Shown in pieces: positions 35,981 through 58,152 of a stretch of 64,000 bases of DNA. The notes beneath the pieces were generated by a model. That model saw nothing but the letters and a program-made list of their open reading frames with translations, searched no databases and was not told the DNA's origin. The stretch spans positions 2,673,501 to 2,737,500 of the forward strand of contig NZ_CP150667.1 of assembly GCF_038024065.1 (NCBI RefSeq), read 5' to 3'. The stretch is from Polaribacter sejongensis. Its GTDB lineage: Bacteria; Bacteroidota; Bacteroidia; Flavobacteriales; Flavobacteriaceae. The translations under genes and the position numbers were made by a program. Position 1 is the stretch's first letter; the number at the start of each line of letters is the position of its first letter.

Positions 35981-36024
35981 CTAATTTACTTAAAAAAACA
36001 AGCTTATAAAATGATTAATATCAT
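35981..36024 (-). promoter_or_regulatory. Crp/Fnr-type site and -7 element for the 35941 gene
   Basis: Palindrome core TGATTAATATCA (36012-36023, flanked by A and T) is centred 29.5 bp upstream of the first base of TAAATTAG (minus strand of 35981-35988; one mismatch to TAnnTTTG). The centre falls near -42 from the expected transcription start. Confidence 0.6.
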
Positions 36025-36029
36025 CTAAA

Positions 36030-36881
36030 TTAGTTTGCCTTTTCCCCTGAAGGAATTACTAAGAAAGGTACATTTAAATGAAAACCTATTTGACTAATTG
36101 TTGATTTAAAAAATAGATTTTCGAAAAAAGAATGCTTATTGTTTATCATCACTAACAGATTTATTCGCATTTTTAATTGAAATTCAGAAATAGCACCTGT
36201 TACACTTTGGTTGCTAACACTATAAAATAAATGGGAAACATTTTTTAAGATTTTATCTAACTTATGTTTATTTTCTATTTGATTTTTAGATAAATCATCG
36301 CCATAAGTAGTGTTTATTATATTTATTCTAGAACTATTAGAAAGGCCAATATCTACAATTAGTTTTACTTGTTTTTCATTAAAAGAAACTTCATAGTCCG
36401 AAGGAAATAATACTTCATTAGGAGCTTCAAAAGCATAATTACTTGGTATTGCTAACACGGGGCATTTTGCATTTTTAATGATATGTACGGTGTTAGAACC
36501 AAATAAAATTTCGGTTAAACCTGTTGCTCCTTTGGTTCCCATTACAATAAGATCCATTACATGTTTTTCATGCAACTCTTCTATCTCACTTGTTAGAGTG
36601 TTAAATGAAGCTATTTTACGATACGTATGGTTTGGGTTTTTAAATTGATTTTCAATTTTTTGTTGAAGTTTATCAAGTCCTTCCTCTGATGTGTTTTTTA
36701 CAACATCAACCAAATTAAAACCTTCAACACCTGGGTTCATATACTCTACATCATAAATCATTGGTGTATAAGTATTCATTATAAAGAAATTACATTTTTC
36801 GTCCTTAAATAATTGAATTGCATATTGAATTGCATTCCATGAATTATCTGAAAAATCTGTAGGTAAAAGTATATTTTTCAT
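36030..36881 (-). CDS. Universal stress protein, two-domain
   Basis: A 283-residue tandem UspA protein. The first domain (about 1-145) starts MKNILLPTDFSDNSWNAI and has the nucleotide-binding GTKGATGL...GSNT near 118-131; the second (about 150-283) is more divergent and lacks a clear Gly-rich loop. Usp proteins accumulate in growth arrest and energy stress. No TGAY-N4-RTCA site was found in its 273-bp upstream region, unlike its paralogue at 37938. Confidence 0.9.
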   Translation of the reverse strand: MKNILLPTDFSDNSWNAIQYAIQLFKDEKCNFFIMNTYTPMIYDVEYMNPGVEGFNLVDVVKNTSEEGLDKLQQKIENQFKNPNHTYRKIASFNTLTSEIEELHEKHVMDLIVMGTKGATGLTEILFGSNTVHIIKNAKCPVLAIPSNYAFEAPNEVLFPSDYEVSFNEKQVKLIVDIGLSNSSRINIINTTYGDDLSKNQIENKHKLDKILKNVSHLFYSVSNQSVTGAISEFQLKMRINLLVMINNKHSFFENLFFKSTISQIGFHLNVPFLVIPSGEKAN

Positions 36882-37086
36882 GATGTTTGTTTTTAATAAA
36901 TTCTAAATTATATTTCCTATTCCATAACCTCCTAGAAGAGATTTTTACCTATAAATTTATTTTATCTATATGGTTTTAAAATAGAATATGTTGCTTTTTA
37001 AGTATAAAATGAACCTCTAAATTTCTTAGATTCTCCTTTGTAAAGAGTTAAATATCTATCAGAAAGATAAAGCACATCTGTTGCAG

Positions 37087-37133
37087 AATTATTATCAGAC
37101 TAAAAAAAAGTCTTTATTAGCCTGATAATAATT
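37087..37133. promoter_or_regulatory. Double-stem structure after the hibernation factor gene
   Basis: AATTATTATCAG (37087-37098) pairs perfectly with CTGATAATAATT (37122-37133), and a smaller AGACT/AGTCT hairpin lies inside with an A-run loop. It follows the stop of the minus-strand hibernation factor gene; there is no clear T run after the outer stem, so its role as terminator is uncertain. The 273-bp gap has no other clear element. Confidence 0.4.
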
Positions 37134-37154
37134 TAACCGAGCATTTATCTGCAT

Positions 37155-37457
37155 TTACAGATAAGGTTTTGTAATTGCTTTTCTCTTTTGTAACTGCTTT
37201 TCTAAATCTGAAATAGTATTTTTTACAGCAAGCTCGTAATTTTTTTCATTTGAAGATGCAAATAATCTTGGTCCTGGTGCACTTAATTCTATTTCACAAA
37301 TTACACCTTTGTTTTTAGAATCATTTTCCTTTTTAAAAAACACATCTGCTTTAATAATTGTTTCGAATTTTTTAACCAAACCATCTAGCTTTTTTTCTGT
37401 ATAAGCTTCCATAGTTTCACTTGTAGACATGTTAACAAATTGAATATTCATTTTCAT
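37155..37457 (-). CDS. Ribosome hibernation promoting factor, short form (HPF/RaiA family)
   Basis: A 100-residue protein of the sigma-54 modulation/S30EA family that binds inactive ribosomes in stationary phase or stress. It shows the family pattern KMNIQFVNMSTSETMEAYTE at the start and ADVFFKKEND near 38-47, ending in a basic tail QLQKRKAITKPYL. Short form without the dimerising C-terminal domain. Third in a row after a Usp gene and a membrane protein gene, and probably transcribed with them. Confidence 0.88.
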   Translation of the reverse strand: MKMNIQFVNMSTSETMEAYTEKKLDGLVKKFETIIKADVFFKKENDSKNKGVICEIELSAPGPRLFASSNEKNYELAVKNTISDLEKQLQKRKAITKPYL

Positions 37458-37538
37458 CTTTATGGTGTTTTTAGTTATTAATAAAAAAATTATTGAAACC
37501 TATCGTTTCGTATGTAGTTCTAAGATAATCCTTTTTAA

Positions 37539-37925
37539 TTAAATTATTATAATAGCATATGCAATATTTAATAGATATAAACCTATTAGAAAAAGTAGTG
37601 TATATATTGCCTGTACAAATCTAATATTTACAAGTTTTAACCAATGTATGGTTCGCTTAGGAATACTAAAAAGAGATAACCCTATAAGTAATGACGACCA
37701 ACCAATTAGGGTAATTATAAGTTTCCAATTAGGCTCCCATATGTTATGGAATAGAATATTTATCAACCCAATAATAATGGCTAAAAAAGAAAAAATAATT
37801 AGAAATTTTTGATCTTCTAAATCATTAAATATTTGCCTAATCCTTTTTGGATTAAAACTTAGTATAACGAAAAAAATAAGTAAGTAATAACCCCAAAACT
37901 TTGCTAAAAAAATTGAATTATCCAT
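37539..37925 (-). CDS. Small membrane protein in the stress operon
   Basis: A 128-residue protein with four predicted membrane helices (about 11-24, 41-58, 66-84 and 104-126). No family recognised. It starts 12 bp after the upstream universal stress gene, so the two are almost certainly cotranscribed from the promoter at 38803-38846. Confidence 0.65.
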   Translation of the reverse strand: MDNSIFLAKFWGYYLLIFFVILSFNPKRIRQIFNDLEDQKFLIIFSFLAIIIGLINILFHNIWEPNWKLIITLIGWSSLLIGLSLFSIPKRTIHWLKLVNIRFVQAIYTLLFLIGLYLLNIAYAIIII

Positions 37926-37937
37926 AACATATTGTTT

Positions 37938-38777
37938 TTATTCATGCAGTACTAAAAAAGGAACATCGGTATGATAGCTTATTTCCGCTACCTTAGTATG
38001 AAATAGTATTTGTTGAAAATAATTAAGATTTTTTGCCACCATAGCAATCATATCTATATTTCTACTATTTACAAAACATTGCACAGCATCTTCTACTTTT
38101 TTATTTGTTAAAAAATGAAAACTGTGTTGGTAATTATAGAGATAATCTTCTAATAGTTCTTTACTTTTTTGTTGATCCTCATTTAAAGAGATCACTTTTT
38201 TACTGATATTTAAAACCCTTAAAGAAGCGTTTTTTTCTTCTAAGATTTTTATTATTGGTTCTAATATTTGTAATTCATTACATAGAGAAAAATCTGTTGG
38301 AAATGCCACCTCTTCTATTTTCTTAAATTTAGCATTCTCAGGTACTACTAAGGTTGTACATTTTACCTTTGTAATAACATCTCCCGTATTACTCCCAGTA
38401 ATATATCCCTGAAAACCACTAGCTCCTTTGGTTCCCATAACAATAACATCTATTTTTTTTTCTTCTACCTGCTGTCTTATAGATTCAATAAAAAAATTAG
38501 TATCTGTTAAAGTGTAAAAATTATGGTTCTTATTATTAAAGTTTAGGGCTATTTTTTGCTGAAGTCCTTTTAATTGTTTTTTTGCATTTTCTATGTTTAC
38601 ATCTATAATAACTTCTTGCGTGTTATCATAGAAATAATCATCTACTACAACATTATTTAACCTATTAACGTGTAACAAATAAAAATTGCACGTTGCGTGC
38701 TTATAAAAATTTAAAGCATACTCAATTGCATTCCAAGAATTGTCTGAAAAATCTGTAGGGAGTAAAATAGCTTTCAT
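37938..38777 (-). CDS. Universal stress protein, two-domain, with Crp-type promoter
   Basis: A 279-residue tandem UspA protein, paralogous to the one at 36030 (both start with LLPTDFSDNSWNAI). The first domain has GTKGASGFQGYITGSNTGDV near 123-142; the second has FPTDFSLC near 166 and ends VPFLVLHE. It leads an operon with the small membrane protein and probably the hibernation factor. Its promoter has a palindrome TGATATTAGTCA and an exact -7 element TAAATTTG. Confidence 0.9.
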   Translation of the reverse strand: MKAILLPTDFSDNSWNAIEYALNFYKHATCNFYLLHVNRLNNVVVDDYFYDNTQEVIIDVNIENAKKQLKGLQQKIALNFNNKNHNFYTLTDTNFFIESIRQQVEEKKIDVIVMGTKGASGFQGYITGSNTGDVITKVKCTTLVVPENAKFKKIEEVAFPTDFSLCNELQILEPIIKILEEKNASLRVLNISKKVISLNEDQQKSKELLEDYLYNYQHSFHFLTNKKVEDAVQCFVNSRNIDMIAMVAKNLNYFQQILFHTKVAEISYHTDVPFLVLHE

Positions 38778-38802
38778 TTAAATTCATCTTTTATCTAAAA
38801 GA

Positions 38803-38846
38803 CAAATTTATTGCTAGAATACTTTTTAAAAAATGATATTAGTCAT
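38803..38846 (-). promoter_or_regulatory. Crp/Fnr-type site and -7 element for the usp operon
   Basis: Palindrome core TGATATTAGTCA (38834-38845) is centred 29.5 bp upstream of the first base of TAAATTTG (minus strand of 38803-38810, an exact TAnnTTTG). Predicted site centre near -42 of the transcript. Confidence 0.65.
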
Positions 38847-38868
38847 ATGGCTGCTAATTCATTTAAAA

Positions 38869-39918
38869 TCAAGAAATATCTTTTAGTTTCTCTAAATCTA
38901 AAATTTTAATTGTTCTACCTTCTATTTCTATTAAACCTTGTTTTTTAAAACTAGACATAGTTCTAATTAATGTTTCTGTTGCAATACCTGCAACACTTGC
39001 TAAATCGTTTCTAGAAATTTTTATTTGATCGTCTGGTTTTCTATTTAATTTTTCTGCAAACATTAAAATTGTCTTCGCTGTTTTTTTACTTACAGAACTA
39101 TACGCCATTTGCAAAAGTTGATCTTTTACAACTGCTAAGTCTTCTGTTAACAATTCTATCAGCTCTAATGTTACTTTATGATTTTTGTTTAAAACACCTG
39201 TTAATGTTTTTTTAGAAAGACCAACTAATTCTGTTTTCTGAATTGCCGTTGCAGATTCTTGATATGCTAAATTCTGAGAAAAAGAAGTATAGCCAAACAA
39301 ATCATCTTCTTTATATAAAGCAGTTGTAAGTTGTTTTCCTTGCTCATCTAACTTATGGCATTTTATAAGCCCTTTATTTATTAAATAAATATAATTAGAG
39401 TTATTACCTTCTTTATAAATGCTTGCATCTTTTAGAAAAGTAAAAGTTTCTCCATTATCTTCAAAATAATTTTTTAAGTCATTAAGACTTCTTATGTCTT
39501 CTTCCTCTTCCTTTACAACTTCAATTTTTTCTCTACGATCTTTTAGTATCGCTGCTTTTGCCAATCTACTTTCTATAGCACTAATTAATTCATCTTCATT
39601 AAAAGGCTTTGTTATATAATCATCTGCCCCTAAATCCATTCCTTTTCTTACATCACTTCTTTCTGTCTTTGCTGATAAAAATATAAACGGAATGTGTTGC
39701 GTTATTTCGTTATTAGTTAAAGCTTCTAAAACACCGTAACCATCTAACTCTGGCATCATAATATCACAAACAATAATATCTGGAACTATTTTTTTTGCTA
39801 ATTGTACCCCTATTTTACCGTTAGCAGCACTGGTAACTTCATAGTTTGATAATTCTAAAAGTTCTGATGTGTTTTCTCTTAAAACTACATCATCCTCAAT
39901 TAATAGTATTTTTCTCAT
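38869..39918 (-). CDS. REC-Crp/Fnr fusion response regulator
   Basis: A 349-residue regulator in three parts: a receiver domain (1-125) with DD at 8-9, the phospho-acceptor D in VCDIMMPELDG near 52 and K in ITKPF near 103; a short coiled linker; a cyclic-nucleotide-binding-like beta-roll (about 155-260); and a Crp-type helix-turn-helix (about 270-349) with SRNDLASVAGIATETLIR. In the recognition helix the E and R of the FNR pattern ExxSR are kept (ETLIR), while S is replaced by I. The beta-roll lacks an iron-sulfur cysteine set, so activation is probably by phosphorylation from the kinase encoded just upstream, whose gene overlaps this one by 4 bp. Confidence 0.9.
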   Translation of the reverse strand: MRKILLIEDDVVLRENTSELLELSNYEVTSAANGKIGVQLAKKIVPDIIVCDIMMPELDGYGVLEALTNNEITQHIPFIFLSAKTERSDVRKGMDLGADDYITKPFNEDELISAIESRLAKAAILKDRREKIEVVKEEEEDIRSLNDLKNYFEDNGETFTFLKDASIYKEGNNSNYIYLINKGLIKCHKLDEQGKQLTTALYKEDDLFGYTSFSQNLAYQESATAIQKTELVGLSKKTLTGVLNKNHKVTLELIELLTEDLAVVKDQLLQMAYSSVSKKTAKTILMFAEKLNRKPDDQIKISRNDLASVAGIATETLIRTMSSFKKQGLIEIEGRTIKILDLEKLKDIS

Positions 39919-41156
39919 ATTGCTTTGTTAATAATCTTCAATGTAAAAGTTGATCCTATATTCTCTTCACTTTCAAAAGTAATTGTTCCTCCTAAATTTT
40001 GTAAATGACTTTTAATAATATTTAAACCAATTCCTGTTCCTTCCGTTAATAAAGCATTTTCTGCTCTAAAATAACGGTTAAATATATTTTTTTGATCTGC
40101 CTTCGGAATCCCAATTCCCTGATCTTTTATTTTGATGGTCGTCGTCGTGCTATCTTGCTTTATTTTAATGTCTATTTCAGAATTTTCTGGAGAATATTTA
40201 ATAGCATTGTTTATTAAATTAGATAATGCCAAGGCGATTGTTTTTTCATCTTGCAATAAAGAAATATCATCTATATCTTCTGGATATTTAATTCTTTGTC
40301 CTACTTTTAAAAGCATGTTTGCATTATAAATAACCTCATCTACTACCTTACTCAATTTAAAAGAATGAAACTTGTAATTTACTTTACCTGTTTCTAATAT
40401 TTCTATGGATAAAAAATCATTTAAAATATTATTTAAATAATGTACTTTATTAGTAATGGTTTCTAAGTGCTTATCTCTTTTTTCTTGTTGTTCTGCCAAC
40501 TTATATTTACCTAAAAGCATTGTAGACGTTAAAATACCACTTAACGGTGTTTTAAACTCATGAGAAACTAACGACAAGAATTTTGTTTTTAGCTCATTGA
40601 GTTCTTTTTGCTTTTTTAAAGCATCTTTAATTTTATTCTCTGCTTCTAGCCGTTTATGATTCTCTTTATCCAGCTCTATATTTACAGTTTTTAATTCATG
40701 AACTGTTTTACTTAATTCTTTTGTTCGTTCACAAACCTTTTTTTCTAGATCATTGTTTAATTGATGTATTTCTTCTTCTTGTTGCTTTCTAACAGAAATA
40801 TCTATAATTAAAGCCATTATAAAAGTTTGTCCTTCTATTTGAAACGGATTTAAACCTGCTTCTAACGGAAAAATAGCGCCATTTTTTCGGGCTCCATACA
40901 AATCTCTCCCATTGCCCATCTGTCTTTTTTCTTTGTTCTTCATAAAACCCTTAAAATGGGCTCCGTGACCTGCATGATAATTTTTAGGGATTAAAATATT
41001 AAGTGGTTTATTTATAAGTTCTCCTGGATCATAACCAAACATTCTCTCTACAGATGAATTTACAGAAACTATGTTTTGCTTATCGTTTACTACAACAACT
41101 CCCTCTGATACAGCCTCAAAAAGTACATTAAAAACATCCCGATCTTTACTTAGCAT
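39915..41156 (-). CDS. PAS-domain sensor histidine kinase, possibly haem-binding
   Basis: A 413-residue cytoplasmic kinase with no membrane helix. A single PAS domain (about 5-128) resembles FixL: MFGYDPGELINKPLNILIPK followed by YHAGHGAHF and GNGRDLYGARKNG, in which a His and an Arg align with the haem ligand and distal Arg of FixL by eye. A coiled coil (about 130-190) leads to the phospho-acceptor H in SLVSHEFKTPLSG near 198-210 and an ATP-binding domain with N-box NLINNAIKYSP and GIGIPK, TGIGLNI. It overlaps the REC-Crp gene by 4 bp and is its likely partner. Confidence 0.88.
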   Translation of the reverse strand: MLSKDRDVFNVLFEAVSEGVVVVNDKQNIVSVNSSVERMFGYDPGELINKPLNILIPKNYHAGHGAHFKGFMKNKEKRQMGNGRDLYGARKNGAIFPLEAGLNPFQIEGQTFIMALIIDISVRKQQEEEIHQLNNDLEKKVCERTKELSKTVHELKTVNIELDKENHKRLEAENKIKDALKKQKELNELKTKFLSLVSHEFKTPLSGILTSTMLLGKYKLAEQQEKRDKHLETITNKVHYLNNILNDFLSIEILETGKVNYKFHSFKLSKVVDEVIYNANMLLKVGQRIKYPEDIDDISLLQDEKTIALALSNLINNAIKYSPENSEIDIKIKQDSTTTTIKIKDQGIGIPKADQKNIFNRYFRAENALLTEGTGIGLNIIKSHLQNLGGTITFESEENIGSTFTLKIINKAI

Positions 41157-41225
41157 TTGGCAATAAATTATCTAATTAAACAAAGATTAAAAATACTACA
41201 TTTTATATTCAAATTATAGTAATTT

Positions 41226-41269
41226 ATGACTAATATCATAATTATATAACTCATTATTATATAACTTTA
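41226..41269 (+). promoter_or_regulatory. Crp/Fnr-type site and -7 element for the terB-like/dnaJ/cbpM unit
   Basis: Palindrome core TGACTAATATCA (41227-41238) is centred 29.5 bp upstream of the first base of TAACTTTA (41262-41269; one mismatch to TAnnTTTG). There is no -7 element at the mirrored position for the divergent kinase gene. Confidence 0.6.
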
Positions 41270-41292
41270 CTCATATTCATAAATTCTTAATT

Positions 41293-41700
41293 ATGAAACC
41301 ATCACAAAACACAATTATTTCTTTTTATGAAAACTTAGGTAAATTATTTTTCGCAATTGCAGCTGCAGATAACATTGTAGAAGAAGTAGAATTTAATGTT
41401 TTAAAAAAAATAGTAAAAGACAAATGGACTAAAGTAGATCCTGTAGATGATGATTTTCATTCGGATGCAGCCTATCAAATAGAAACCGTTTTCGATTGGT
41501 TAAATATTGAAAGTTTTTCTAATTCAGAAACTTGTTACAATGAGTTTATCGATTTTAAAAAAGAACATCCTTCCTTATTTACCGAAGAAATAAAAAGTCT
41601 AATTATAAAAACAGCAACTAAAATAGCTGCTTCTGTTGCAGATTTAAATAAATCTGAATTAAAATTGGTTGCAAAACTAAGTTTAGAACTTGAAAAATAA
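41293..41700 (+). CDS. TerB-like acidic protein
   Basis: A 135-residue soluble acidic helical protein. LFFAIAAADNIVEEVEFNVLKKIV near residues 14-37 has the pattern of the TerB/DUF533 metal-binding helix pair, and the C-terminal helices have AASVADLNKSELKLVAKLS. Family membership is by eye and moderate. It opens a unit with the DnaJ-like and CbpM-like genes behind a Crp-type site. Confidence 0.6.
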   Translation: MKPSQNTIISFYENLGKLFFAIAAADNIVEEVEFNVLKKIVKDKWTKVDPVDDDFHSDAAYQIETVFDWLNIESFSNSETCYNEFIDFKKEHPSLFTEEIKSLIIKTATKIAASVADLNKSELKLVAKLSLELEK

Positions 41701-41785
41701 TAAATTTAAGTATTATTTTAACCAAGTTGTAATACACAACCAAATTAAAAAAAATACGTATATTACTTTTTAAACACCTTAACTG

Positions 41786-42670
41786 ATGGCTTCTATAGAT
41801 TATTATAAAATTTTAGGAATTACCAAAAGTGCTTCTGAAGCTGATATTAAAAAAGCTTACAGAAAATTAGCACGAAAATACCATCCAGATCTAAACCCTA
41901 ATGATAAAACTGCTGAGAAAAGCTTTAAAGAAATTAACGAAGCTAATGAAGTTTTAAGTAATCCAGAAAATCGTAAGAAATACGATGCATATGGAGAGCA
42001 TTGGCAAAACGGAGAAGCTTACGAACAAGAAAAACGAAGACAGCAAGAACATCAAAGTAGGTCTCAAAGTAATCAAGGTGGGTATTCTCAAGAAGATTTT
42101 TCTGATATTTTTGGAGACATGTTTGGTGGTGCTTCTTCAGGAAGAAGGACGAATGCGAAATTTAGAGGGCAAGATTACAATTCTGAAATTCAACTAAATT
42201 TAAACGATGTTTATAAAACACAAAAACAAGTAATTACTGTTAATGGAAAAAACATTAGAATTACAATTCCGGCTGGTGTAGAAAACGGACAAGTAATCAA
42301 AATAAAAGGGCATGGAGGAAAAGGTGTAAATGGTGGACCTAATGGCGATTTATACATTCAGTTTTCTATTATAAATAACACCAAATTTAAACGAGACAAA
42401 GACAATCTTTATATTGATGTTGATTTAGATTTATATACGGCTCTTTTAGGTGGACAATTAACCGTTGATACTTTTGATGGACAAGTAAAATTAACCGTTA
42501 AGCCAGAAACAGCAAACGGAACCAAGGTAAAACTAAAAGGAAAAGGATTTCCTAAATATAAAAAAGAAGATCAGTTTGGAGATCTATATATCAATTATCA
42601 ACTTAAAATACCAACTAAATTAAACGAAAAAGAGATAGCATTAATTAAAGAATTACAAAAACTACGCTAA
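41786..42670 (+). CDS. CbpA-type DnaJ co-chaperone
   Basis: A 294-residue class B J-protein: J domain at 1-70 with HPD in KYHPDLNPND near 33-42, a Gly/Gln/Ser-rich linker with GDMFGGASSG, and two C-terminal substrate-binding beta domains with RITIPAGVENGQVIKIKG near 153-170; there is no zinc-finger domain. It would recruit DnaK. The cbpM-like gene starts 3 bases after its stop, as in the enterobacterial cbpAM pair. Confidence 0.9.
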   Translation: MASIDYYKILGITKSASEADIKKAYRKLARKYHPDLNPNDKTAEKSFKEINEANEVLSNPENRKKYDAYGEHWQNGEAYEQEKRRQQEHQSRSQSNQGGYSQEDFSDIFGDMFGGASSGRRTNAKFRGQDYNSEIQLNLNDVYKTQKQVITVNGKNIRITIPAGVENGQVIKIKGHGGKGVNGGPNGDLYIQFSIINNTKFKRDKDNLYIDVDLDLYTALLGGQLTVDTFDGQVKLTVKPETANGTKVKLKGKGFPKYKKEDQFGDLYINYQLKIPTKLNEKEIALIKELQKLR

Positions 42671-42672
42671 AC

Positions 42673-42969
42673 ATGGAAACTCAAAATTTAATATCTATTC
42701 AGCAGTTTTGTGCCCACTACAGCATTCCTACAGCTTTTATAAATGAGTTAAAAGAGTATGAATTAATAGAGATTATTGTAGAAAATAATGATCATTATAT
42801 TAAAATTACGCAAATAACAGAAGTTGAAAAAATGATTCGTTTGCATTATGATTTAAATATAAATTTAGAAGGTGTAGACGTAATTTATAATTTATTAAAC
42901 CAAGTAGATTCTTTAAAAAAAGAAATAACCGATTTACAAAACAAGCTCAATTTTTACGAAAACGAATAA
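42673..42969 (+). CDS. Chaperone modulator CbpM-like protein
   Basis: A 98-residue MerR-like helix-turn-helix protein: ISIQQFCAHYSIPTAFINELKEYELIEI near 7-34, then a linker and a C-terminal helix with DSLKKEITDLQNKL. CbpM binds the J domain of CbpA and inhibits it. Translationally coupled to the DnaJ-like gene by position. Confidence 0.82.
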   Translation: METQNLISIQQFCAHYSIPTAFINELKEYELIEIIVENNDHYIKITQITEVEKMIRLHYDLNINLEGVDVIYNLLNQVDSLKKEITDLQNKLNFYENE

Positions 42970-43083
42970 AATTCTAAAATAATTTCATATAAAAATAGTT
43001 CCTTATTTTAGCGCTACCTCCTAGTCTTTTTAGGCTTTTTACACCTAAAAAATCATATAATTAAAGATAAAAAATTAATAAAC

Positions 43084-43126
43084 TGATTTTTATCATATTT
43101 TATTTAATTGATTTTTAATACATTAG
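43084..43126 (+). promoter_or_regulatory. Crp/Fnr-type site and -7 element for the PNPOx-fold gene
   Basis: Palindrome core TGATTTTTATCA (43084-43095) is centred 29.5 bp upstream of the first base of TACATTAG (43119-43126; one mismatch to TAnnTTTG). Confidence 0.6.
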
Positions 43127-43154
43127 TCACTCCCTTTAACTAAAACTAAGCATC

Positions 43155-43616
43155 ATGATAACTAATTTAAAAGAGAATGAATGCATAAACATCTTAGAAA
43201 ATAACTATGTAGGGCAACTGAGCTATATTTATATAGAAAGACCTTTTATTGTACCCATGACTTATTTTTTTGACAAGAAAAATAGTATTGTAGGCTATTC
43301 CGAAGAAGGTCATAAAACAAAGGCAATGAGAAATTATAGAAAAGTTTCTCTGCAGGTTTCAGAAAAAGCAGACAGCAATACTTGTAATTCTGTTTTAGTG
43401 CATGGTATTTATGAAGAACTATCGGGTTCTGTAGCAAAAAAATATTTGCACGATTTTACCGAAGGTATTAAAGCAATTATTCTAAAAAATGAACACAGAA
43501 ATTTGCATTGTATAAGCGATTTCTCTAATAAAAGAACACAGAAAAAAATTCCAATTGTTTTTAGAATAACTGTTGATGAAATGACCGGTAAAAAAATTAC
43601 AAACGAGAGTTTATAA
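43155..43616 (+). CDS. Pyridoxamine 5'-phosphate oxidase-fold flavin-binding protein
   Basis: A 153-residue split-barrel protein of the PNPOx-like FMN-binding superfamily: GQLSYIYIERPFIVPMTYFFD near 18-38 and GYSEEGHKTKAMRNYRKVSLQ near 46-66 correspond to the flavin site. Members of this small type are often nitroreductase-related or of unknown role and commonly lie beside universal stress genes. It has its own Crp-type promoter. Confidence 0.8.
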   Translation: MITNLKENECINILENNYVGQLSYIYIERPFIVPMTYFFDKKNSIVGYSEEGHKTKAMRNYRKVSLQVSEKADSNTCNSVLVHGIYEELSGSVAKKYLHDFTEGIKAIILKNEHRNLHCISDFSNKRTQKKIPIVFRITVDEMTGKKITNESL

Positions 43617-43695
43617 CAAGAAAACATAAATATCAAATTTAAAAAGACCATCTAAAAAGGTGCAATACTTTCTAGACAGCCTCTTTCTATGTAAT

Positions 43696-44031
43696 TTATT
43701 TAGCTCCCAAAAGCAATAATTCATTCACCATAATTTCGGTAACATATCTTTTTTCTCCTTCTTTGGTATCATAAGAACGGTTTGTTAACTTCCCTTCAAC
43801 GGCAATTTCTTGCCCTTTATTTACATAGTTTTCTACCACTTTAACCAAACCTCCAGTAATAACAATATTATGCCAATAAGCACGCTCTACCTTATTACCT
43901 GCTTTGTCTTTGTAACTGTCATCTGTAGCCATAGAAAATTTAGCCATTTTATTACCATCTTTAAAAGTTACTATTTCTGGATCTTGACCCAATCTACCAA
44001 TTAACTGTACTTTGTTTCTTAACGTATTCAT
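43696..44031 (-). CDS. ssb: Single-stranded DNA-binding protein
   Basis: A 111-residue OB-fold protein beginning MNTLRNKVQLIGRLGQDPE with KMAKFSMATDDSYKDKAG and the conserved YVNKGQEIAVEGKLTNRSY. It is shorter than the usual 150-180 residues and lacks the acidic C-terminal tip that recruits repair proteins (it ends LLLLGAK), so it may be a secondary SSB paralogue rather than the essential one. Confidence 0.88.
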   Translation of the reverse strand: MNTLRNKVQLIGRLGQDPEIVTFKDGNKMAKFSMATDDSYKDKAGNKVERAYWHNIVITGGLVKVVENYVNKGQEIAVEGKLTNRSYDTKEGEKRYVTEIMVNELLLLGAK

Positions 44032-44209
44032 AAGATAAGTTTTTATGCATTTTTATTGAATGCAGGTTTATAATTTGTTTTTGTCAATTCGTTTTGACTC
44101 TGCAAAGTTGCGACACCATTACAATTTTATTCGGTTACAAAACAATTACTTTCGGTTGTAATTACTTGTAGTCGTTTGTAAACGGATAAAATTTAAGTAT
44201 ATTTACCTT

Positions 44210-45092: not shown

Positions 45093-45122
45093 AAAATTTA
45101 CATCAACATATACTTTTATAAA

Positions 45123-48198: not shown

Positions 48199-48200
48199 GT

Positions 48201-48671: not shown

Positions 48672-48703
48672 AGATTATAACTAATACTCGTTTTTATGAA
48701 AAA

Positions 48704-48711: not shown

Positions 48712-48761
48712 CTAATTGTTTACGAACTTTACTGTTAATTTTAACGAAAACGTTATCGTGG

Positions 48762-49499: not shown

Positions 49500-49505
49500 A
49501 GAGTA

Positions 49506-50759: not shown

Positions 50760-50765
50760 ATAAAT

Positions 50766-51002
50766 TTACTTTTTAGCTTCTTCAATATAGCTTACTGCTT
50801 GACCTACTGTTCCGATGTTCTCTGCTTGATCATCTGGTATTTGAATATCAAATTCTTTTTCGAATTCCATAATTAATTCAACAGTATCCAAAGAATCTGC
50901 TCCTAAATCGTTTGTGAAGCTAGCTTCTGTTGTTACTTCGTTATCGTCTACGCCTAATTTGTCTACGATAATAGCTTTTACTCTTGATGCAATGTCTGAC
51001 AT
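50766..51002 (-). CDS. acpP: Acyl carrier protein
   Basis: A 78-residue acidic protein with the 4'-phosphopantetheine site [12 protein letters not shown] (Ser near residue 37). Shuttles acyl chains in fatty acid synthesis. First gene of the operon with fabF and rnc. Confidence 0.96.
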
Positions 51003-51033
51003 AATTTTGTGTTTTTTAAAATTTTAATCGGGG

Positions 51034-51041
51034 CAAAAATA
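51034..51041 (-). promoter_or_regulatory. Promoter -7 element for acpP-fabF-rnc
   Basis: TATTTTTG on the minus strand matches TAnnTTTG exactly, 32 bp before the acpP start. TTAG lies 19 bp farther upstream, one base from the TTTG -33 element. Confidence 0.55.
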
Positions 51042-51173
51042 CAAATCTTAGCAATTAAAACTAATTTTTGTCCCGAAAATGATTCTTAAAAGTAAATAAA
51101 AATATTTAATCTTCTCTTAAAATAATCAATTTGTTAATAATTATTCTTTTTTTTGTAGCTTAGAAATGAAGTT

Positions 51174-51746
51174 ATGAAGCGTATTGTTATTTTTGCATCT
51201 GGTTCTGGAACGAACGCAGAAAACATTATTAAATTTTTTAATCATACTAAAACCGCTAAGGTTACTACTGTGCTATGTAACAATGAACATGCCAAAGTAT
51301 TTGATAGATGTAAAAAATTAGACATCAAATGTTTACATTTTAAAAAAGAAGCTTTTTTTACTTCGGATGAAGTGCTAAACCTATTAAAAGAGCAGGCAGA
51401 TTACATTATTTTAGCTGGTTTTTTATGGAAAATTCCAACCAAAATTATCGATGCTTTTCCGAATAAAATCATAAATATTCATCCTGCATTATTGCCAAAA
51501 TATGGCGGAAAAGGGATGTATGGAATGAACGTTCATAAAGCGGTAAAAGAAAATAAAGAATCAGAAACGGGTATTACAATTCACTATGTAAATGCCAATT
51601 ATGATGAAGGTGCCATCATTTATCAGGCAAAAACAGCCTTAAACGAGGAAGATTCTCCCGAAAAAATTGCAGAAAAGATCCATATTTTAGAGCAACGTTA
51701 CTTTCCTAGAGTTATTGAAGATGTAATTTTAGCTATAAATGAGTAA
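51174..51746 (+). CDS. purN: Phosphoribosylglycinamide formyltransferase
   Basis: Transfers a formyl group from 10-formyl-THF in the third step of purine synthesis. The 190-residue enzyme has the nucleotide loop FASGSGTNAENI near 6-17, the catalytic INIHPALLPKYGG near 99-111 and the Asp in NYDEGAII near 141-148. A few bases overlap the next gene. Confidence 0.95.
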   Translation: MKRIVIFASGSGTNAENIIKFFNHTKTAKVTTVLCNNEHAKVFDRCKKLDIKCLHFKKEAFFTSDEVLNLLKEQADYIILAGFLWKIPTKIIDAFPNKIINIHPALLPKYGGKGMYGMNVHKAVKENKESETGITIHYVNANYDEGAIIYQAKTALNEEDSPEKIAEKIHILEQRYFPRVIEDVILAINE

Positions 51747-52374
51747 AAAAAAGTTTTATGTAGTTTGGAACGGACACAGAAAAGGGGTTTTTACGTCTTG
51801 GAAAGTCTGTAAAAAGCAAATTGATGGTTTTGAAGGTGCTCAATATAAATCGTTCGCAGATTTAAATGAAGCCGAAATAGCTGCAACCAAAAGTTATGCA
51901 GACTATGTAGGGAAAGACACTAAAAAGAAAACGTTATCATCAACAGAAAAAGAAAAAATTGGGAGACCTATTTTAGAAAGTATTTCTGTGGATGCAGCTT
52001 GTTCTGGAAATCCTGGTAAAATGGAATACAGAGGCGTTTTAACGCATAATAAGCAACAAATTTTTATAAAAGGCCCATTTGCTAGAGGAACTAACAATAT
52101 TGGCGAATTCCTAGCTCTAGTGCACGGAATTGCTTTGTTAAAGAGCAAGAACAAGGAAAATATTCCTATTTATTCCGATTCTAAAATTGCCATGAGTTGG
52201 GTAAAGCAGAAAAGATGCAAAACCAACATGCATTTTGATGCTTCTAACAAAGATTTATTAGAGTTGATAAAAAGAGCTGAAACTTGGCTAAAGAATAACA
52301 CGTATAAAAACCCAATTCTTAAATGGGAAACCAAAGCTTGGGGAGAAATTCCTGCGGATTTTGGGAGGAAGTAA
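51739..52374 (+). CDS. Viroplasmin-domain ribonuclease H
   Basis: A 211-residue fusion of an N-terminal viroplasmin/Cauli_VI domain (KKFYVVWNGHRKGVFTSW near 4-21) and a type 1 RNase H domain. The catalytic acidic residues are present: D in SVDAACSGNPG, E in NNIGEFLA, D in IYSDSKIA and D in PADFGRK at the C-terminus. It removes RNA from RNA-DNA hybrids; the viroplasmin domain probably binds nucleic acid. It overlaps purN by 8 bp. Confidence 0.9.
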   Translation: MSKKKFYVVWNGHRKGVFTSWKVCKKQIDGFEGAQYKSFADLNEAEIAATKSYADYVGKDTKKKTLSSTEKEKIGRPILESISVDAACSGNPGKMEYRGVLTHNKQQIFIKGPFARGTNNIGEFLALVHGIALLKSKNKENIPIYSDSKIAMSWVKQKRCKTNMHFDASNKDLLELIKRAETWLKNNTYKNPILKWETKAWGEIPADFGRK

Positions 52375-52403
52375 AAAAGTACGCAGTTGGCAGTAACAGT
52401 TTT

Positions 52404-52415
52404 CAGTTGCTTACT
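52404..52415 (+). repeat. Repeat fragment shared with the Bat locus
   Basis: CAGTTGCTTACT is shared with 10654-10665 in a similar run of CAGT-rich sequence. Confidence 0.45.
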
Positions 52416-52541
52416 GTTGTGGAAATTATTACTGAACACTCTAGTATATCCAATACTAAATAGTAGAATTCTTGTTATTACGTACAACTTGTCCCTTTAA
52501 AGTAATGAGAAGTCGCATGACAGTGATAATCAACAAGACTT

Positions 52542-52652
52542 AAAATCATAAAAAGAAGACAAGAGTTAGAGCTCTCTCAAACAGATTTAACCATTAAATT
52601 AAACATGACCACAAGTGGATGTCTTAATAAAGAGAAAGAGACTTTAAACTAG
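52542..52652 (+). pseudogene. Remnant of a Cro/CI-type (XRE) helix-turn-helix gene
   Basis: An open frame of 36 codons ending at TAG 52650-52652 translates to IIKRRQELELSQTDLTIKLN and a following short tail; LSQTDL-x-IKL fits the helix-turn-helix signature of XRE regulators. There is no start codon (stop at 52527-52529), the recognition helix is followed by a truncation, and the region around is debris: a degenerate copy of the hairpin-array motif (52495-52525) upstream. The 470-bp gap 52375-52844 holds these and the terminator at 52746. Confidence 0.45.
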
Positions 52653-52745
52653 ATCTTTTAAGGCTATTTTACAGTTGTAGGCTGTTTAAATATGGGTACT
52701 AAAACACTTTTTTTTAAGCTAAATTATCAACTTTTATTATAAAAC

Positions 52746-52780
52746 AAAACCCCGAAACTAATAATTAGCTTCGGGGTTTT
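52746..52780. terminator. Terminator between the XRE remnant and the sdh operon
   Basis: AAAACCCCGAA (52746-52756) and TTCGGGGTTTT (52770-52780) with A and T runs on both sides; it can serve the sdh operon on the minus strand and the plus-strand genes. Confidence 0.75.
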
Positions 52781-52844
52781 TATATTTATAAATTTACTTT
52801 AAGATTGATTTGTAAAAAATCGCAATGATATTTAAATTAGCTTA

Positions 52845-53585
52845 TTATAAATTAGCTTTCATCAACTCTCTATTCATACGAGCTATATTGTCTAAAGAAA
52901 TTCCTTTAGGACATTCTACCTCACAAGCCCCTGTATTTGTACAGTTTCCAAAACCTTCTAAATCCATTTGAGCTACCATGTTTTGTACACGATCTGCAGC
53001 CTCTATTTGTCCTTGTGGTAATAAAGCATACTGAGATACTTTTGCACCTACAAATAACATTGCAGAAGAGTTTTTACACGTTGCTACACAAGCACCACAA
53101 CCAATACAAGCTGCTGCATCCATAGCCTCATCCGCTGCATGTTTAGAAATAGGCAACGAGTTAGCATCTTGTGTATTACCAGAAGTGTTTACAGAAATGT
53201 AACCACCTGCTTGCTGAATACGCTCAAAAGCCATTCTATCTACAATTAAATCTTTAATTACAGGAAATGCTGATGCTCTGAAAGGCTCTATAGTAATAGT
53301 TTCTCCATCATGAAACATACGCATGTGTAATTGACAGGTAGTAATACCTCTATCTGGCCCATGTGCTTCTCCATTAATATATAAAGAACACATACCGCAA
53401 ATACCTTCACGACAATCATGATCAAAAGCAACAGGTTCTTCACCTGAATTAACCAATTGTTCATTCAAAACATCCATCATTTCTAAGAAAGACATATGCT
53501 CTGAAATATCAGTCACTTTATAGTCTACCATTTGACCCTTTGAACCAGCGTCTTTTTGTCTCCAAATTTTAAGTGTTAAATTCAT
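52845..53585 (-). CDS. sdhB: Succinate dehydrogenase/fumarate reductase iron-sulfur subunit
   Basis: A 246-residue subunit carrying three iron-sulfur clusters: CREGICGMC near 58-66 for [2Fe-2S], [12 protein letters not shown] near 154-165 and [15 protein letters not shown] near 214-228 for the others. It transfers electrons between the flavoprotein and the membrane quinone. Last gene of sdhCAB, ended by the terminator at 52746-52780. Confidence 0.95.
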
Positions 53586-53595
53586 TTTGTCTTTC

Positions 53596-55608
53596 TTATT
53601 TGTATGAACGTTGTTTAAGTTCTATATCTTTAAATTCTAATTCTTCTTTATGTAAAACTGCGTCTGCAGGTTCTCCTTTATATTCCCAAGCAGATACAAA
53701 AGCAAAATCTTTATCATTACGTTTTGCTTCTCCTTTTTGCTCACCGTCTAATTCTACAGATTCTTCTCTAAAGTGTCCACCACAAGATTCATTTCTTACT
53801 AAAGCATCTTTAGCAAACAATTCTCCTAATTCTAAGAAATCTGCTACACGTCCTGCTTTTTCAAGCTCTACATTCATTTCGTTTGCAGTACCAGGAACCA
53901 TTACGTCTTTCCAGAACTCTTCACGAATTGCTTTAATTTCTGCCATAGCAGCTTTTAAATCTTTTTCGTTACGAGACATACCTACTTTATCCCACATTAC
54001 TTTTCCAAGACGTTTGTGGAAATGGTCTACAGATTTTGTTCCTTTATTGTTCAAGAAGAAATCGATTCTATCTGTTACTTCTTTTTCAGCCTCATCAAAC
54101 TCTTTAGTATCGGTTGCAATCGCTCCCGTTCTAATATCATCAGATAAATAATCTCCAATTGTATAAGGTAATACAAAATAACCATCAGCTAAACCTTGCA
54201 TTAAAGCAGAAGCTCCAAGTCTGTTTGCACCATGATCAGAGAAGTTAGCTTCACCAATACAGTATAAACCTTCTACAGTAGTCATTAGGTTATAATCTAC
54301 CCAAACACCACCCATTGTATAGTGTGTTGCTGGATAAATCATCATTGGAGTTTCATATGGGTTTTCAGCGATGATTTTTTCATACATCTGAAATAAGTTT
54401 CCGTATTTTTCTTCAATAATTGCTTGTCCTAATTCTATAATTTTTTCGTTAGAAGCATTTTTAATACCATGAATCTTAGCTTGCTCTTTACCATAACGTT
54501 GAAAAGCAGAAGCAAAATCTAAATACACAGCTTCACCTGTTGCATTTACACCATAACCAGCATCACAACGCTCTTTTGCTGCTCTAGAAGCAACATCACG
54601 TGGTACTAAGTTACCAAAGGCAGGGTAACGTCTTTCTAAGTAATAATCTCTATTTTCTTCAGCAATTTCAGTAGGCTTTAATTTACCTTGCTGAATTAAT
54701 TTTGCATCTTCTATTCTTGCAGGAACCCAAATTCTACCATCGTTACGTAAAGATTCAGACATCAAAGTTAATTTAGACTGATAATCTCCTGAACGAGGAA
54801 TACATGTTGGGTGAATTTGTGTATAACAAGGATTTGCGAAATACGCTCCTTTTTTATGGATTTTCCAAGCTGCAGTAGCATTAGAACCCATTGCATTTGT
54901 AGATAAGAAATACACGTTTCCGTAACCTCCCGTTGCAATTACAACAGCATGTGCAGAATGACGTTCTATTTCTCCTGTAATTAAATCTCTCGCAATAATT
55001 CCTCTTGCTTTTCCTCCAACTTTAACAACGTCTAACATTTCATGACGATTGAACATCTCAATCTTACCACGAGCAATTTGACGGTTCATTGCAGAATAAC
55101 ATCCTAATAATAATTGTTGTCCTGTTTGTCCTTTTGCATAAAAAGTTCTAGAAACTAAAACTCCACCAAAAGAACGGTTATCTAATAAACCACCATAATC
55201 ACGTGCAAAAGGAACTCCTTGTGCCACACATTGATCTATAATGTTACCAGATACTTCTGCCAAACGGTGTACGTTTGCTTCACGAGAACGGTAATCTCCT
55301 CCTTTTACAGTATCGTAAAACAATCTGTAATTAGAATCCCCATCTCCCATGTAATTTTTTGCTGCGTTAATTCCACCTTGTGCTGCAATTGAATGCGCTC
55401 TACGAGGAGAATCTTGGTAAGCAAATGCTTTTACGTTATATCCTAATTCTGCTAACGTTGCTGCTGCAGAACCTCCTGCTAAACCTGTACCAACAACAAT
55501 AATATCAATATTACGTTTGTTAGCTGGATTTACAAGATCTATTTTATCTTTATAAGTTGTCCATTTATCTTTAATTGGACCTTCTGGTATTTTTGAATCT
55601 AAAGCCAT
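53596..55608 (-). CDS. sdhA: Succinate dehydrogenase/fumarate reductase flavoprotein subunit
   Basis: A 670-residue flavoprotein of the TCA cycle. FAD-binding [17 protein letters not shown] near 37-53 and [15 protein letters not shown] near 72-86 (His of the covalent flavin); the active-site [11 protein letters not shown] near 264-274 and the [18 protein letters not shown] near 452-469. Located in the inner membrane complex with sdhB and sdhC, 10 bp from sdhB and 17 bp from sdhC. Confidence 0.95.
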
Positions 55609-55625
55609 AGTTATAAGATTAATGG

Positions 55626-56285
55626 TTAATGATTAAAATGATGAAACAATGCAACAATGATAAATCCTAAAGGAATAATTATAGAATATATTTTACCAAA
55701 GTTTTGTAATGCTTTTTTTCTACCTGCAGTAACTCCCATAGATTGGAAAGCAGATGTAAAACCGTGTGCTAAATGCAATCCTAAGAAAACAAAAGCGATA
55801 ACATAAAATGCAACTCGCCAAAGAGGTACAAATTTTTCTTGTAACTCATGAAAATATCTTACAGGATCTTCTGGTAATGCTGCAATGTATTTATGGTTAA
55901 CTTCTGGAATCCAGAAATCTATAAAGTGAAGTACAATAAAAGCCAAAATAGCTGCTCCACTCCAAATCATGTTTCTACTCATCCAAGATGAATTAGCTGC
56001 ACCATTGTTTTTAGCATAAGCAACTCCGTTTGCTTTTTTGTTTTTTATTTCTAAAATAAAACCTAATACAAAGTGAAAAATAACACCAAAAACTAATACA
56101 GGTTGCAACGCAAATTGTACTAAAGGATTGGTTCCCATAAAATGAGACAACTCATTAAAGAGTTCTTCACTAAAGAGTGATGTAATATTTACCGCTAAAT
56201 GTATAATTAAGAAAAACATGAGGAAGAATGCGGAAAGCGCCATGGCTACCTTTCTCCCAACTGAAGATTTGAAAAATCCGCTCAT
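55626..56285 (-). CDS. sdhC: Succinate dehydrogenase cytochrome b subunit
   Basis: A 219-residue diheme cytochrome b-type membrane anchor of the menaquinone-reactive class, with five helices (for example [20 protein letters not shown] near 13-32 and [14 protein letters not shown] near 168-181) and conserved His residues for two haems. First gene of the operon. Confidence 0.92.
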
Positions 56286-56322
56286 TGTATAAATGTATAA
56301 TTAAGTTATAATTGTTCTTTTA

Positions 56323-56330
56323 CAAATGTA
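56323..56330 (-). promoter_or_regulatory. Promoter -7 element for sdhCAB
   Basis: TACATTTG on the minus strand matches TAnnTTTG exactly, 38 bp before the sdhC start. Confidence 0.5.
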
Positions 56331-56435
56331 CCATTTAGATACGCTCTACTGAAATAATAATGGTTGTTTTTTGGTTATTTAGAATCGTTTTAAGGTGATG
56401 ATTTTGTTTTAAATATTACTTTATTTTTTAGCGTG

Positions 56436-58052
56436 TTATAACACTGCCATTACTTCTGCTACAATAATTATAAGAACCAATGAAAAAGGATACACAGCTG
56501 CATAAGCAATTTGAGGAGCATCCGAATCGGTCATAGAATCTGTTGCACTTAATCCTGGTGTAGAAGTCATACCTCCTGTTAAGGCTCCTAAAACAGACAA
56601 AAAGTTTATTTTTAATAGGAATCGTCCAACAAGAACAGTAATAATCATAGGAATTAAGGTAATTAAAGCACCGTATAAAAATAAAATAAAACCATGTTTT
56701 TCAATTGCTGAAATTAAACTTTGTCCTGCTTTTAAACCAACAGGAGTAAGAAATAATAAAAGCCCAAACTGACGTAATATTTGGTTTGCAGGACCCGATA
56801 AATTCCAAATTACAGTAGCAAACTTTCCTTTCCAACTTAAAAATATAGAAGATAAAAGCACACCTCCTGTAAGACCTAATTTTAAACCAATTCCTCCTAA
56901 AGGAATAGCAATAGCACCTACAAGAATACCGATAACAATACCAAATGCTACAGGTAAAAAACTTGTTTGTCCTATTCTTTTTAAACTATCTCCAAAGAGT
57001 TGCGTCACCGCAGGAACATTCCCTTTAGAGCAAGAAACTAAAATTTTATCACCATATTTTATTTTGGTTGATGGATGCGGAGCTAAATCGATACTAGCTC
57101 TTCTAATACGTGTTATGGTAGCAGAATAATTTTCTAGAAGATTAAGTTCTTCAATGGTTTTATTTACCACAGCATCATTACTTACTACATACCATTTTAC
57201 TTCGTATGTTCCACTTCTAGGGATTTTAATATCGGTAACTTTACCTAATAAAACCTCTATTCTTTGCAACGCATTTACCGTACCTACTGCTTTTATAATA
57301 TCTCCCGTTTCTAAAATAGTATCTTTTGTTGGAGAAATAGGCAACTGATTAGGCTTCATAATACGTGAAATATTCGCTTTGGTCATAAAACGAATTCTCA
57401 ATTCTCTAATCGTTTTACCATTTACGTTTTCATTAGAGATAATTAGGTTTTTATTGATCACCATTGGAGTGCTAGATTTCGATTTTTCTTCAAAATCTTT
57501 TTCTTCTTTTTCGATGTTCACCCTAAACAACGAAGGACCTAATTTTACAAATAAAATAACACCTAAAACTCCAAACGGATATGCAATACCATAACCAATA
57601 GACGCTAAAGGAGATTGAGAAGCCTCTATAGAAGCAGCCAAACCAGGTGTAGATGTTAGTGCTCCTGTTAGTAAACCACTCATCATATTCATATCTACAT
57701 CATAAATATAAGAAATAGACACTGCAGTAATACCACCTGTTAGAACTGTAATTCCTGCTAAAACAATTAACTTAGCTCCTTGTTCTTTAAAAGAGCTAAA
57801 AAAAGAAGGTCCTGCTTGCATACCAATGGTGTAAATAAATAACACCAAACCTACACTTTGAATAATTGGAGGAATATTAAAGGTAATGCCGTTTAAATTG
57901 TACAGATATCCAAAAAAGATAGCGACAAAAATAACCGCAGAAGTATCAAAACTTATCCCTTTTATACGAATGTTTCCTAGGGCGATTCCTAAACCAATAA
58001 CTAGAAATAACACAAAGTAATCTTTAGTGAGTAATTCTAAAAAAAATTCCAT
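56436..58052 (-). CDS. AspT/YidE-family transporter with two RCK_C domains
   Basis: A 538-residue inner-membrane transporter: two halves of about six helices, each carrying a repeated loop motif, GALTSTPGLAAS near 133 and GGMTSTPGLSATD near 500, separated by a cytoplasmic region with two TrkA_C (RCK_C) domains (about 200-360). AspT exchanges aspartate for alanine in lactobacilli; YidE-type substrates are unknown. It is a stand-alone gene with a promoter that has the TGAY-N4-RTCA palindrome of the stress cluster. Confidence 0.87.
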   Translation of the reverse strand: MEFFLELLTKDYFVLFLVIGLGIALGNIRIKGISFDTSAVIFVAIFFGYLYNLNGITFNIPPIIQSVGLVLFIYTIGMQAGPSFFSSFKEQGAKLIVLAGITVLTGGITAVSISYIYDVDMNMMSGLLTGALTSTPGLAASIEASQSPLASIGYGIAYPFGVLGVILFVKLGPSLFRVNIEKEEKDFEEKSKSSTPMVINKNLIISNENVNGKTIRELRIRFMTKANISRIMKPNQLPISPTKDTILETGDIIKAVGTVNALQRIEVLLGKVTDIKIPRSGTYEVKWYVVSNDAVVNKTIEELNLLENYSATITRIRRASIDLAPHPSTKIKYGDKILVSCSKGNVPAVTQLFGDSLKRIGQTSFLPVAFGIVIGILVGAIAIPLGGIGLKLGLTGGVLLSSIFLSWKGKFATVIWNLSGPANQILRQFGLLLFLTPVGLKAGQSLISAIEKHGFILFLYGALITLIPMIITVLVGRFLLKINFLSVLGALTGGMTSTPGLSATDSMTDSDAPQIAYAAVYPFSLVLIIIVAEVMAVL

Positions 58053-58108
58053 AATTTTTAATATTAATTTTATTATTTTTTATAAAAATTGACTTTAATT
58101 TAAGTAGA

Positions 58109-58152
58109 CAAAAGTAGGTCTTTAGTGTATTTAATTTTTATGATAATTATCA
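58109..58152 (-). promoter_or_regulatory. Crp/Fnr-type site and -7 element for the AspT-like gene
   Basis: Palindrome TGATAATTATCA (58141-58152) is centred 30.5 bp upstream of the first base of TACTTTTG (minus strand of 58109-58116, an exact TAnnTTTG). One base longer spacing than at the other four sites. Confidence 0.55.

Follow-up and report, generated by a model that had tools for sequence, protein, structure and literature searches.

Five intergenic regions in a 64,000-nucleotide stretch of the Polaribacter sejongensis chromosome (NZ_CP150667.1, positions 2,673,501 to 2,737,500; hereafter the window) carry the palindrome TGAY-N4-RTCA at a nearly constant distance from a TAnnTTTG-like promoter element (the -7 element), which raises the question of what this composite element is and which protein reads it. 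The same cluster encodes REC-Crp, a response regulator in which a receiver domain (REC) is fused to a Crp-type output, together with a sensor kinase. We consider it likely that the palindrome is a Crp/Fnr class II site that, in this cluster, would be bound mainly by the kinase-driven REC-Crp, the box being shared with an FNR-type regulator. The argument is built from sequence: the element and its fixed spacing, its conservation, the set of genes behind it, and its co-occurrence with both regulators.

All five palindromes reported by the first-pass annotation were recovered at the positions it had assigned, and remeasuring reproduced both its centre-to-element spacing (29.5 bp at four sites and 30.5 bp at one) and its tally of two exact -7 elements and three with one mismatch to TAnnTTTG. 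Three sites lie on the minus strand. The palindrome TGATATTAATCA (36012..36023), with the one-mismatch element TAAATTAG (35981..35988), is upstream of a gene for a helical protein without a Pfam match over the cut-off (35495..35941, minus strand); TGACTAATATCA (38834..38845), with the exact element TAAATTTG (38803..38810), is upstream of a putative target operon encoding a universal stress protein (usp), a membrane protein, and a hibernation factor (hpf; 37155..38777, minus strand); and TGATAATTATCA (58141..58152), with the exact element TACTTTTG (58109..58116) at 30.5 bp, is upstream of the gene for an AspT-like transporter (56436..58052, minus strand). On the plus strand, a second copy of TGACTAATATCA (41227..41238), with the one-mismatch element TAACTTTA (41262..41269), precedes the putative target operon TerB-like gene-dnaJ-cbpM (41293..42969), in the region where this operon and the kinase gene diverge; the TerB-like assignment has an E-value of 0.067, below the Pfam cut-off. 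The palindrome TGATTTTTATCA (43084..43095), with the one-mismatch element TACATTAG (43119..43126), precedes the gene for a PNPOx-fold protein (Pfam Pyridox_ox_2; 43155..43616, plus strand). The genes behind all five sites are putative targets, and none of the sites has a T before TGA. Two details of the original description needed correction: a distance of 20 to 45 bp from element to gene does not apply to aspT, for which 56 bp separate the end of the -7 element from the ATG, and the window contains a sixth palindrome, also intergenic (59020-59031), which has no -7 element at the fixed spacing.

The palindrome alone is expected by chance several times per 64 kb, as had been cautioned, and the window holds 6 against 3.16 expected, a weak excess reached by 7 of 100 shuffles. 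All 6 are intergenic, although a simple open reading frame (ORF) mask leaves only 15% of the window as intergenic DNA. In 5 of the 6, a -7 element with no more than one mismatch follows at 29.5 or 30.5 bp; random intergenic centres have such an element in 6.9% of cases (P = 8.6e-6, rising to approximately 4e-4 once a factor of 50 allows for the choice of distance).

The spacing stands out in related loci, for which we used the best 80 of 570 loci fetched with the REC-Crp protein, from Polaribacter, Kordia, Confluentibacter, Winogradskyella, Tenacibaculum, and other genera, at least 2 genomes being represented twice. Among 480 palindromes in these loci, 134 had an exact TAnnTTTG at 29.5 bp from the centre, whereas at each of the remaining distances from 5 to 80 bp the number did not exceed 4. 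The largest pile among 12 control motifs was 6, at 22.5 bp, for TTGY-N4-RCAA, and its fixed place and reading identify it as coding sequence of the kinase PAS region. The 134 sites share the consensus AAAnMTGAY-N4-RTCATnTTT, with symmetric AT tracts on both sides of the palindrome; the base preceding TGA is A in 73% and C in 22% of the sites and T in none (0/134), and the base following TCA is T in 99%. When base frequencies were split by gene (75 usp, 16 terB, and 12 cco sites; no formal statistic applied), the preferences of FNR-type and REC-Crp regulators could not be distinguished from each other.

Genome-wide scans confirmed the enrichment anticipated by the first-pass annotation. The P. 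sejongensis genome contains 16 exact composites (palindrome and -7 element at the fixed spacing) against 0 reversed controls, and 296 Bacteroidia genomes contain 1042 against 29, with at least 1 composite in 238 genomes. Allowing one mismatch raises the numbers in P. sejongensis to 39 composites against 20 controls, so that approximately half of the one-mismatch hits are noise and three of the five window sites need support from conservation. When gaps from 8 to 38 were scanned in the same genome with the TGAT half only, 11 composites had a gap of 23 and 4 a gap of 24, a further 9 gaps yielded a single composite apiece, and the reversed controls totalled 4; a spacing of 30.5 bp thus seems to be permitted as well. 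We examined 24 composite loci (16 exact and 8 one-mismatch) of 30 fetched, the 6 left out being one-mismatch sites and 9 of the 39 matches having no locus, and none of the 24 composites was enclosed in an ORF of more than 80 amino acids. Exact sites precede genes assigned over the NCBIfam cut-offs to pta, methylmalonyl-CoA epimerase, copper nitrite reductase (nirK), phosphofructokinase (pfk), and ccoS with ccoN, and composite sites also precede genes for a cytochrome c and a TetR protein (both over the Pfam cut-off), as well as genes that we take to be ribB and PEPCK. Below the cut-offs, a RIC-like protein is encoded behind a one-mismatch site and an old-yellow-enzyme relative behind a site of the TTGAY type. 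The proposal of a regulon thus stands, whereas its restriction to five stress-linked units does not, since ccoS/ccoN, nirK, pta, and pfk also belong to the set.

Upstream regions were then compared gene by gene, a composite being counted when an exact palindrome was accompanied by a -7 element with at most one mismatch at a pooled spacing of 28.5 to 30.5 bp (nearly all 29.5 bp, except for the kinase gene); orthologues with less than 60% coverage or less than 250 bp of upstream sequence are omitted from the counts. The expected conservation upstream of orthologues holds for usp2 (75 of 78 loci) and for the TerB-like gene (39/41, of which 16 are exact and one or two have a spacing 1 bp shorter), and is lower at the helical-protein and PNPOx sites (see below). 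A composite was also found upstream of hpf in 5 of 8 cases. Genes internal to the operons served as negatives and gave 0/78 for REC-Crp, 0/18 for cbpM, 0/29 for the membrane protein, and 2/20 for dnaJ. The counts for usp1 (44/78) were left out of the evidence because the best hits of usp1 and usp2 are one and the same ORF in 41 of the 78 loci. The aspT site is kept at 30.5 bp in five close orthologues from the genus (88% to 99% identity), with both palindrome halves intact and the palindrome centre altered in three; one of six orthologues of approximately 50% identity has a site, at 29.5 bp, and two aspT relatives have a T before TGA. Taken together, the aspT orthologues lend the site weak independent support. 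In the genus relatives L151, L158, L160, L161, and L162, a second conserved stretch, ACTACAACGTATTCG, precedes the aspT palindrome by approximately 80 bp.

These results bear on the reading that AT-rich intergenic DNA contains such palindromes by chance and that the five were selected for their spacing. The modest excess of palindromes in the window and the yield of one-mismatch composites from reversed controls speak for that reading; the 29.5-bp peak missing from the control motifs, the genome-wide counts, the gene-wise conservation, and the window statistics rule it out for practical purposes.

The position of the palindrome relative to the promoter suggests how it would act. A transcriptome report on Flavobacterium psychrophilum places TAnnTTTG at -12 to -5 (PMC9723704), and 29.5 bp upstream of -12 the palindrome centre would fall at -41.5, the class II position. 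Neither TTTG (27/134 against 22.5 in shuffles) nor TTG (53/134 against 51.1) is enriched within the 23-bp spacer; the search for a -33 element there was negative, and the counts fit an operator that replaces it. With the transcription start taken from F. psychrophilum, the sites would thus have the layout by which class II CRP and FNR sites are defined (centre at -41.5, over the -35/-33 region), in keeping with the earlier suggestion of a site near -42 in place of the -33 element. That the palindrome instead binds a repressor or silencer is improbable in our judgment: the AT tracts are symmetric, and a palindrome before the FNR-type gene discussed below (genome positions 2111281-2111292), having no forward -7 element at that spacing, could repress, but a repressor would tolerate other positions, whereas the fixed distance, the centre at -41.5, and the unenriched -33 sequence are typical of class II activators. 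We give very little credence to the idea that the whole composite is one extended promoter motif for an alternative sigma factor. The spacing is indeed as rigid as that between two sigma boxes; however, symmetric flanks enclose an inverted repeat in the upstream part, the -7 part is the normal TAnnTTTG, a spacing longer by 1 bp is tolerated, and the abundance of composites tracks two Crp-type proteins.

The first of these proteins, REC-Crp (38869..39918, minus strand), is the proposed binder in the cluster. Pfam recognizes a receiver domain, a cyclic-nucleotide-binding fold (PF00027, 1.8e-12), and a Crp helix-turn-helix (HTH; PF13545, 1.1e-14), placing the protein in the Crp/Fnr superfamily. 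Asp52 of the receiver domain and E315, I318, and R319 of the recognition helix are each present in 81 of 81 sequences (the window protein and 80 relatives), consistent with the initial observation that the helix keeps the E and R of FNR, and by eye the E-x-x-I-R pattern is also kept in ten REC-Crp proteins from other families. REC-Crp is not an FNR proper, which has an N-terminal Cys cluster for [4Fe-4S], as its N-terminus is the receiver domain and its sequence contains only two Cys residues; nor does it carry the pocket signature of cyclic AMP-binding CRP, since in the alignment with GlxR a Y stands opposite both the GE glutamate and the RTS arginine, presumably residues of the cyclic AMP pocket. 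It also departs from FixJ, a receiver with a LuxR-type HTH, in having a Crp HTH as its output.

The gene for the adjacent sensor histidine kinase (39915..41156, minus strand) shares 4 bp with that for REC-Crp, an arrangement found in 55 of 78 loci, and the protein contains HisKA-HATPase kinase domains. Among solved structures, the best matches of its PAS domain are FixL and DosP, and His64 (65 of 66 sequences) and Arg84 (59 of 66) align with a His and, 20 residues on, an Arg in both; these we take to be the heme ligand and the distal Arg. Sensing of O2 through heme by this FixL-like PAS domain is accordingly plausible for the kin of the window kinase. The target set, together with the induction of cbb3 oxidase under oxygen limitation reported for F. 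psychrophilum (PMC9723704), would fit low oxygen as the signal.

Which regulator reads the box is complicated by a second candidate. The P. sejongensis genome encodes four Crp/Fnr proteins over the Pfam cut-off, REC-Crp and three others, and two of the four have the E-x-x-I-R helix, namely REC-Crp (ATETLIRTM) and an FNR-type regulator (TATESAIRLL; L141:1039-1731, genome positions 2111324-2112016; hereafter L141). L143 (SRSNLNVL) and L144 (SRVVISRL) were set aside as binders because their recognition helices differ. The L141 gene lies approximately 5 kb from ccoN, where ccoS/ccoN has a composite, and ccoN, an FNR-type gene, and REC-Crp are neighbors in 14 of the 80 related loci. It could be argued, then, that the sites belong to L141 alone and that REC-Crp, binding something else, merely adjoins its targets. 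We classified the 296 genomes by the presence of each regulator, using E-value limits of our own choice (1e-60 and 1e-38; 12 ambiguous genomes were set aside, and the 1e-38 limit may admit further Crp/Fnr paralogues to the FNR-type class). Composites averaged 8.1 per genome in the 45 genomes with both regulators, 3.5 in the 97 that have REC-Crp alone, 3.7 in the 71 that have the FNR-type protein alone, and 0.8 in the 71 that lack both; the genomes are related, so that P values from this comparison overstate independence. The same tendency is seen among 11 genomes of the window's own family, with 16, 8, 20, and 17 composites where both regulators are present and 2, 9, 4, 7, 5, 5, and 6 where there is one.

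Ownership by L141 alone would account for the shared helix, the ccoS/ccoN composite, and the FNR-type-only average; it is at odds with the 97 REC-Crp genomes that have no FNR-type match below 1e-38 and still exceed the genomes with neither regulator. In 19 such genomes, 13 of the 95 composites listed are within 10 kb of a listed REC-Crp gene, compared with 0.53 expected, and the same-genus genome G238, which has REC-Crp and only distant matches to L141 (best Crp/Fnr match 1.3e-30), has 9 composites. Ten REC-Crp stretches from other families, nine of them from genomes of this kind and mostly chosen for a nearby composite, which means that they show the genes present rather than their frequency, contain 13 composites near REC-Crp. 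Three of these precede Usp genes and two precede genes that resemble ccoN; the others lie before the kinase gene itself, genes for an Hsp20 and a YgaP-like membrane protein (both by Pfam), a TerB-like gene (just below the cut-off), and further genes; 3 of the 13 have a T before TGA, and one of the ten stretches has neither a composite nor a kinase match. On this evidence we regard sole ownership by L141 as unlikely. The co-occurrence of composites with both regulators and their proximity to REC-Crp suggest that REC-Crp and the FNR-type protein both probably read the box. The first-pass proposal that REC-Crp binds it is therefore retained in part: co-occurrence, proximity, and helix conservation point to REC-Crp as a likely owner of the regulon, whereas a role as sole binder is not upheld, given the identical residues in L141 and the composites in FNR-type-only genomes.

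The mechanism that we favor starts with the FixL/DosP-like PAS kinase, which, with oxygen (or nitric oxide) as the presumed signal, would phosphorylate the receiver domain of the neighboring REC-Crp. Phosphorylated REC-Crp would bind the inverted repeat AAAnATGAY-N4-RTCATnTTT, as it reads in this cluster, through the E-x-x-I-R helix of its Crp HTH, and the repeat, centred at -41.5, would replace the -33 element and drive the TAnnTTTG promoter. The FNR-type protein encoded near the cbb3 oxidase genes, having the same recognition residues, would read the same box, so that the two regulators would share a network of low-oxygen, nitrogen-oxide, and dormancy genes.

Several observations weigh against this scheme or narrow it. 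Some of the five sites, or all of them, may be served by the FNR-type protein alone. Two of the five are poorly conserved: the helical-protein gene has a composite before 8 of 27 orthologues, and the PNPOx gene has the palindrome before 18 of 23 and a composite, always with one mismatch, before 13 of 23. The aspT site is absent in 5 of the 6 orthologues of approximately 50% identity and in 2 more distant ones. The promoter of the kinase and REC-Crp genes has a composite in only 14 of 76 loci, all with one mismatch, indicating little class II autoregulation, and the 2 dnaJ composites, likewise with one mismatch, lie before a gene that is operon-internal in the window. Of the 16 exact sites in the P. 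sejongensis genome, 4 read TTGAY-N4-RTCAA (L116, L119, L121, and L126, at 1168744, 2615894, 2776097, and 3433888) and may belong to another regulator, which would bring the count for the present box nearer to 12; in the remaining exact sites, TGA is preceded by A, G, or C and TCA is followed by T or G. By eye, five kinases from other families keep the PAS His and have M (3) or K (2) in place of the Arg, so that heme-based O2 sensing is not to be assumed across the class.

The proposed site resembles those of the FNR, FixK, Anr, and Dnr regulons in its inverted repeat with a 4-nucleotide centre, its position at -41.5, and targets such as cbb3 oxidase and nirK. It differs in the outer base, which is A or C and never T in the 134 sites (ATGAY rather than TTGAT), the FNR-like TTGAY/RTCAA being present nonetheless at the 4 of 16 P. 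sejongensis sites, and in the promoter, which is TAnnTTTG. When aligned with Aliivibrio fischeri FNR, the L141 helix keeps E and R, with T and I in place of the V and S of FNR. The DosR dormancy regulon of mycobacteria is similar in its heme-type kinase logic and in its usp, Hsp20, hibernation, and PNPOx-type genes, but DosR itself is of the LuxR type, acts on another operator, and is not homologous. The Dnr box is given as TTGAT-N4-ATCAA (PMC1274295). The FixL-FixJ-FixK cascade (PMC7888657, PMC9104804) is comparable in its PAS kinase, which the window kinase resembles, and in its receiver domain, Crp/Fnr output, and cbb3 targets; with receiver and Crp output in one protein, the system described here would lack the FixJ-to-fixK transcription step. 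Of the Crp/Fnr regulators from the same phylum, HcpR2 is given the site GTAAC-N4-GTTAC (PMC1274295) and differs from the present box in its half-site and its hcp targets, and MalR (PMC8510549) shares family and phylum. The literature searched, at the level of the titles and abstract openings listed and with most subscription papers and all preprints outside it, yielded no description of the box or of the REC-Crp fusion. Whether the whole class uses a condensed FixL-FixJ-FixK system, in which a heme-PAS kinase would act through REC-Crp and an FNR-type partner on ATGAY-N4-RTCAT promoters of cbb3, denitrification, hibernation, universal stress, and chaperone genes, is to us an evenly balanced question.

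Relative to known Crp/Fnr class II sites, the apparent novelty lies in the different outer base, the Bacteroidota promoter, and the kinase-driven REC-Crp fusion. To our knowledge, low-oxygen gene control is poorly charted in Bacteroidota, which are major marine degraders of organic matter. The composite, a simple pattern with low background across the 296 genomes, makes the regulon legible in genome sequence, provides a widespread family of REC-Crp regulators with a likely operator, places a class II layout on a TAnnTTTG promoter, and turns low-oxygen sensing in Bacteroidota into a directly testable question.

Some minor observations concern the regulators and individual sites. In the alignment of L141 with A. 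fischeri FNR, the N-terminal region of L141 includes a C-x2-C, and a further Cys pairs with the distant Cys of FNR, but no residue matches the third N-terminal Cys of the latter; the cofactor of L141 may differ from that of FNR. The palindrome approximately 30 to 40 bp upstream of the FNR-type gene, TGATATATATCA (2111281-2111292), forms a 30.5-bp composite on the minus strand, a hint of autorepression or of a divergent target. The REC-Crp-linked kinases of other Bacteroidia (L166, L167, L170, and L171) are longer and comprise 630 to 639 amino acids with a hydrophobic N-terminal region, whereas the window kinase has 413. The TTGAY-type sites at L116, L119, L121, and L126 precede, respectively, the old-yellow-enzyme relative, a gene that we take to be ribB-like, a relative of metal-dependent hydrolases, and an ORF at a distance of 276 bp, and a Crp/Fnr match below the cut-off (L145) ends just before the L116 site. 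Finally, in L124:1501-2451 a composite is followed by an ORF of 45 amino acids and then by the Crp/Fnr gene L144, behind which lie presumed cytochrome-c-like and thioredoxin-like genes, an arrangement compatible with a possible regulator cascade.

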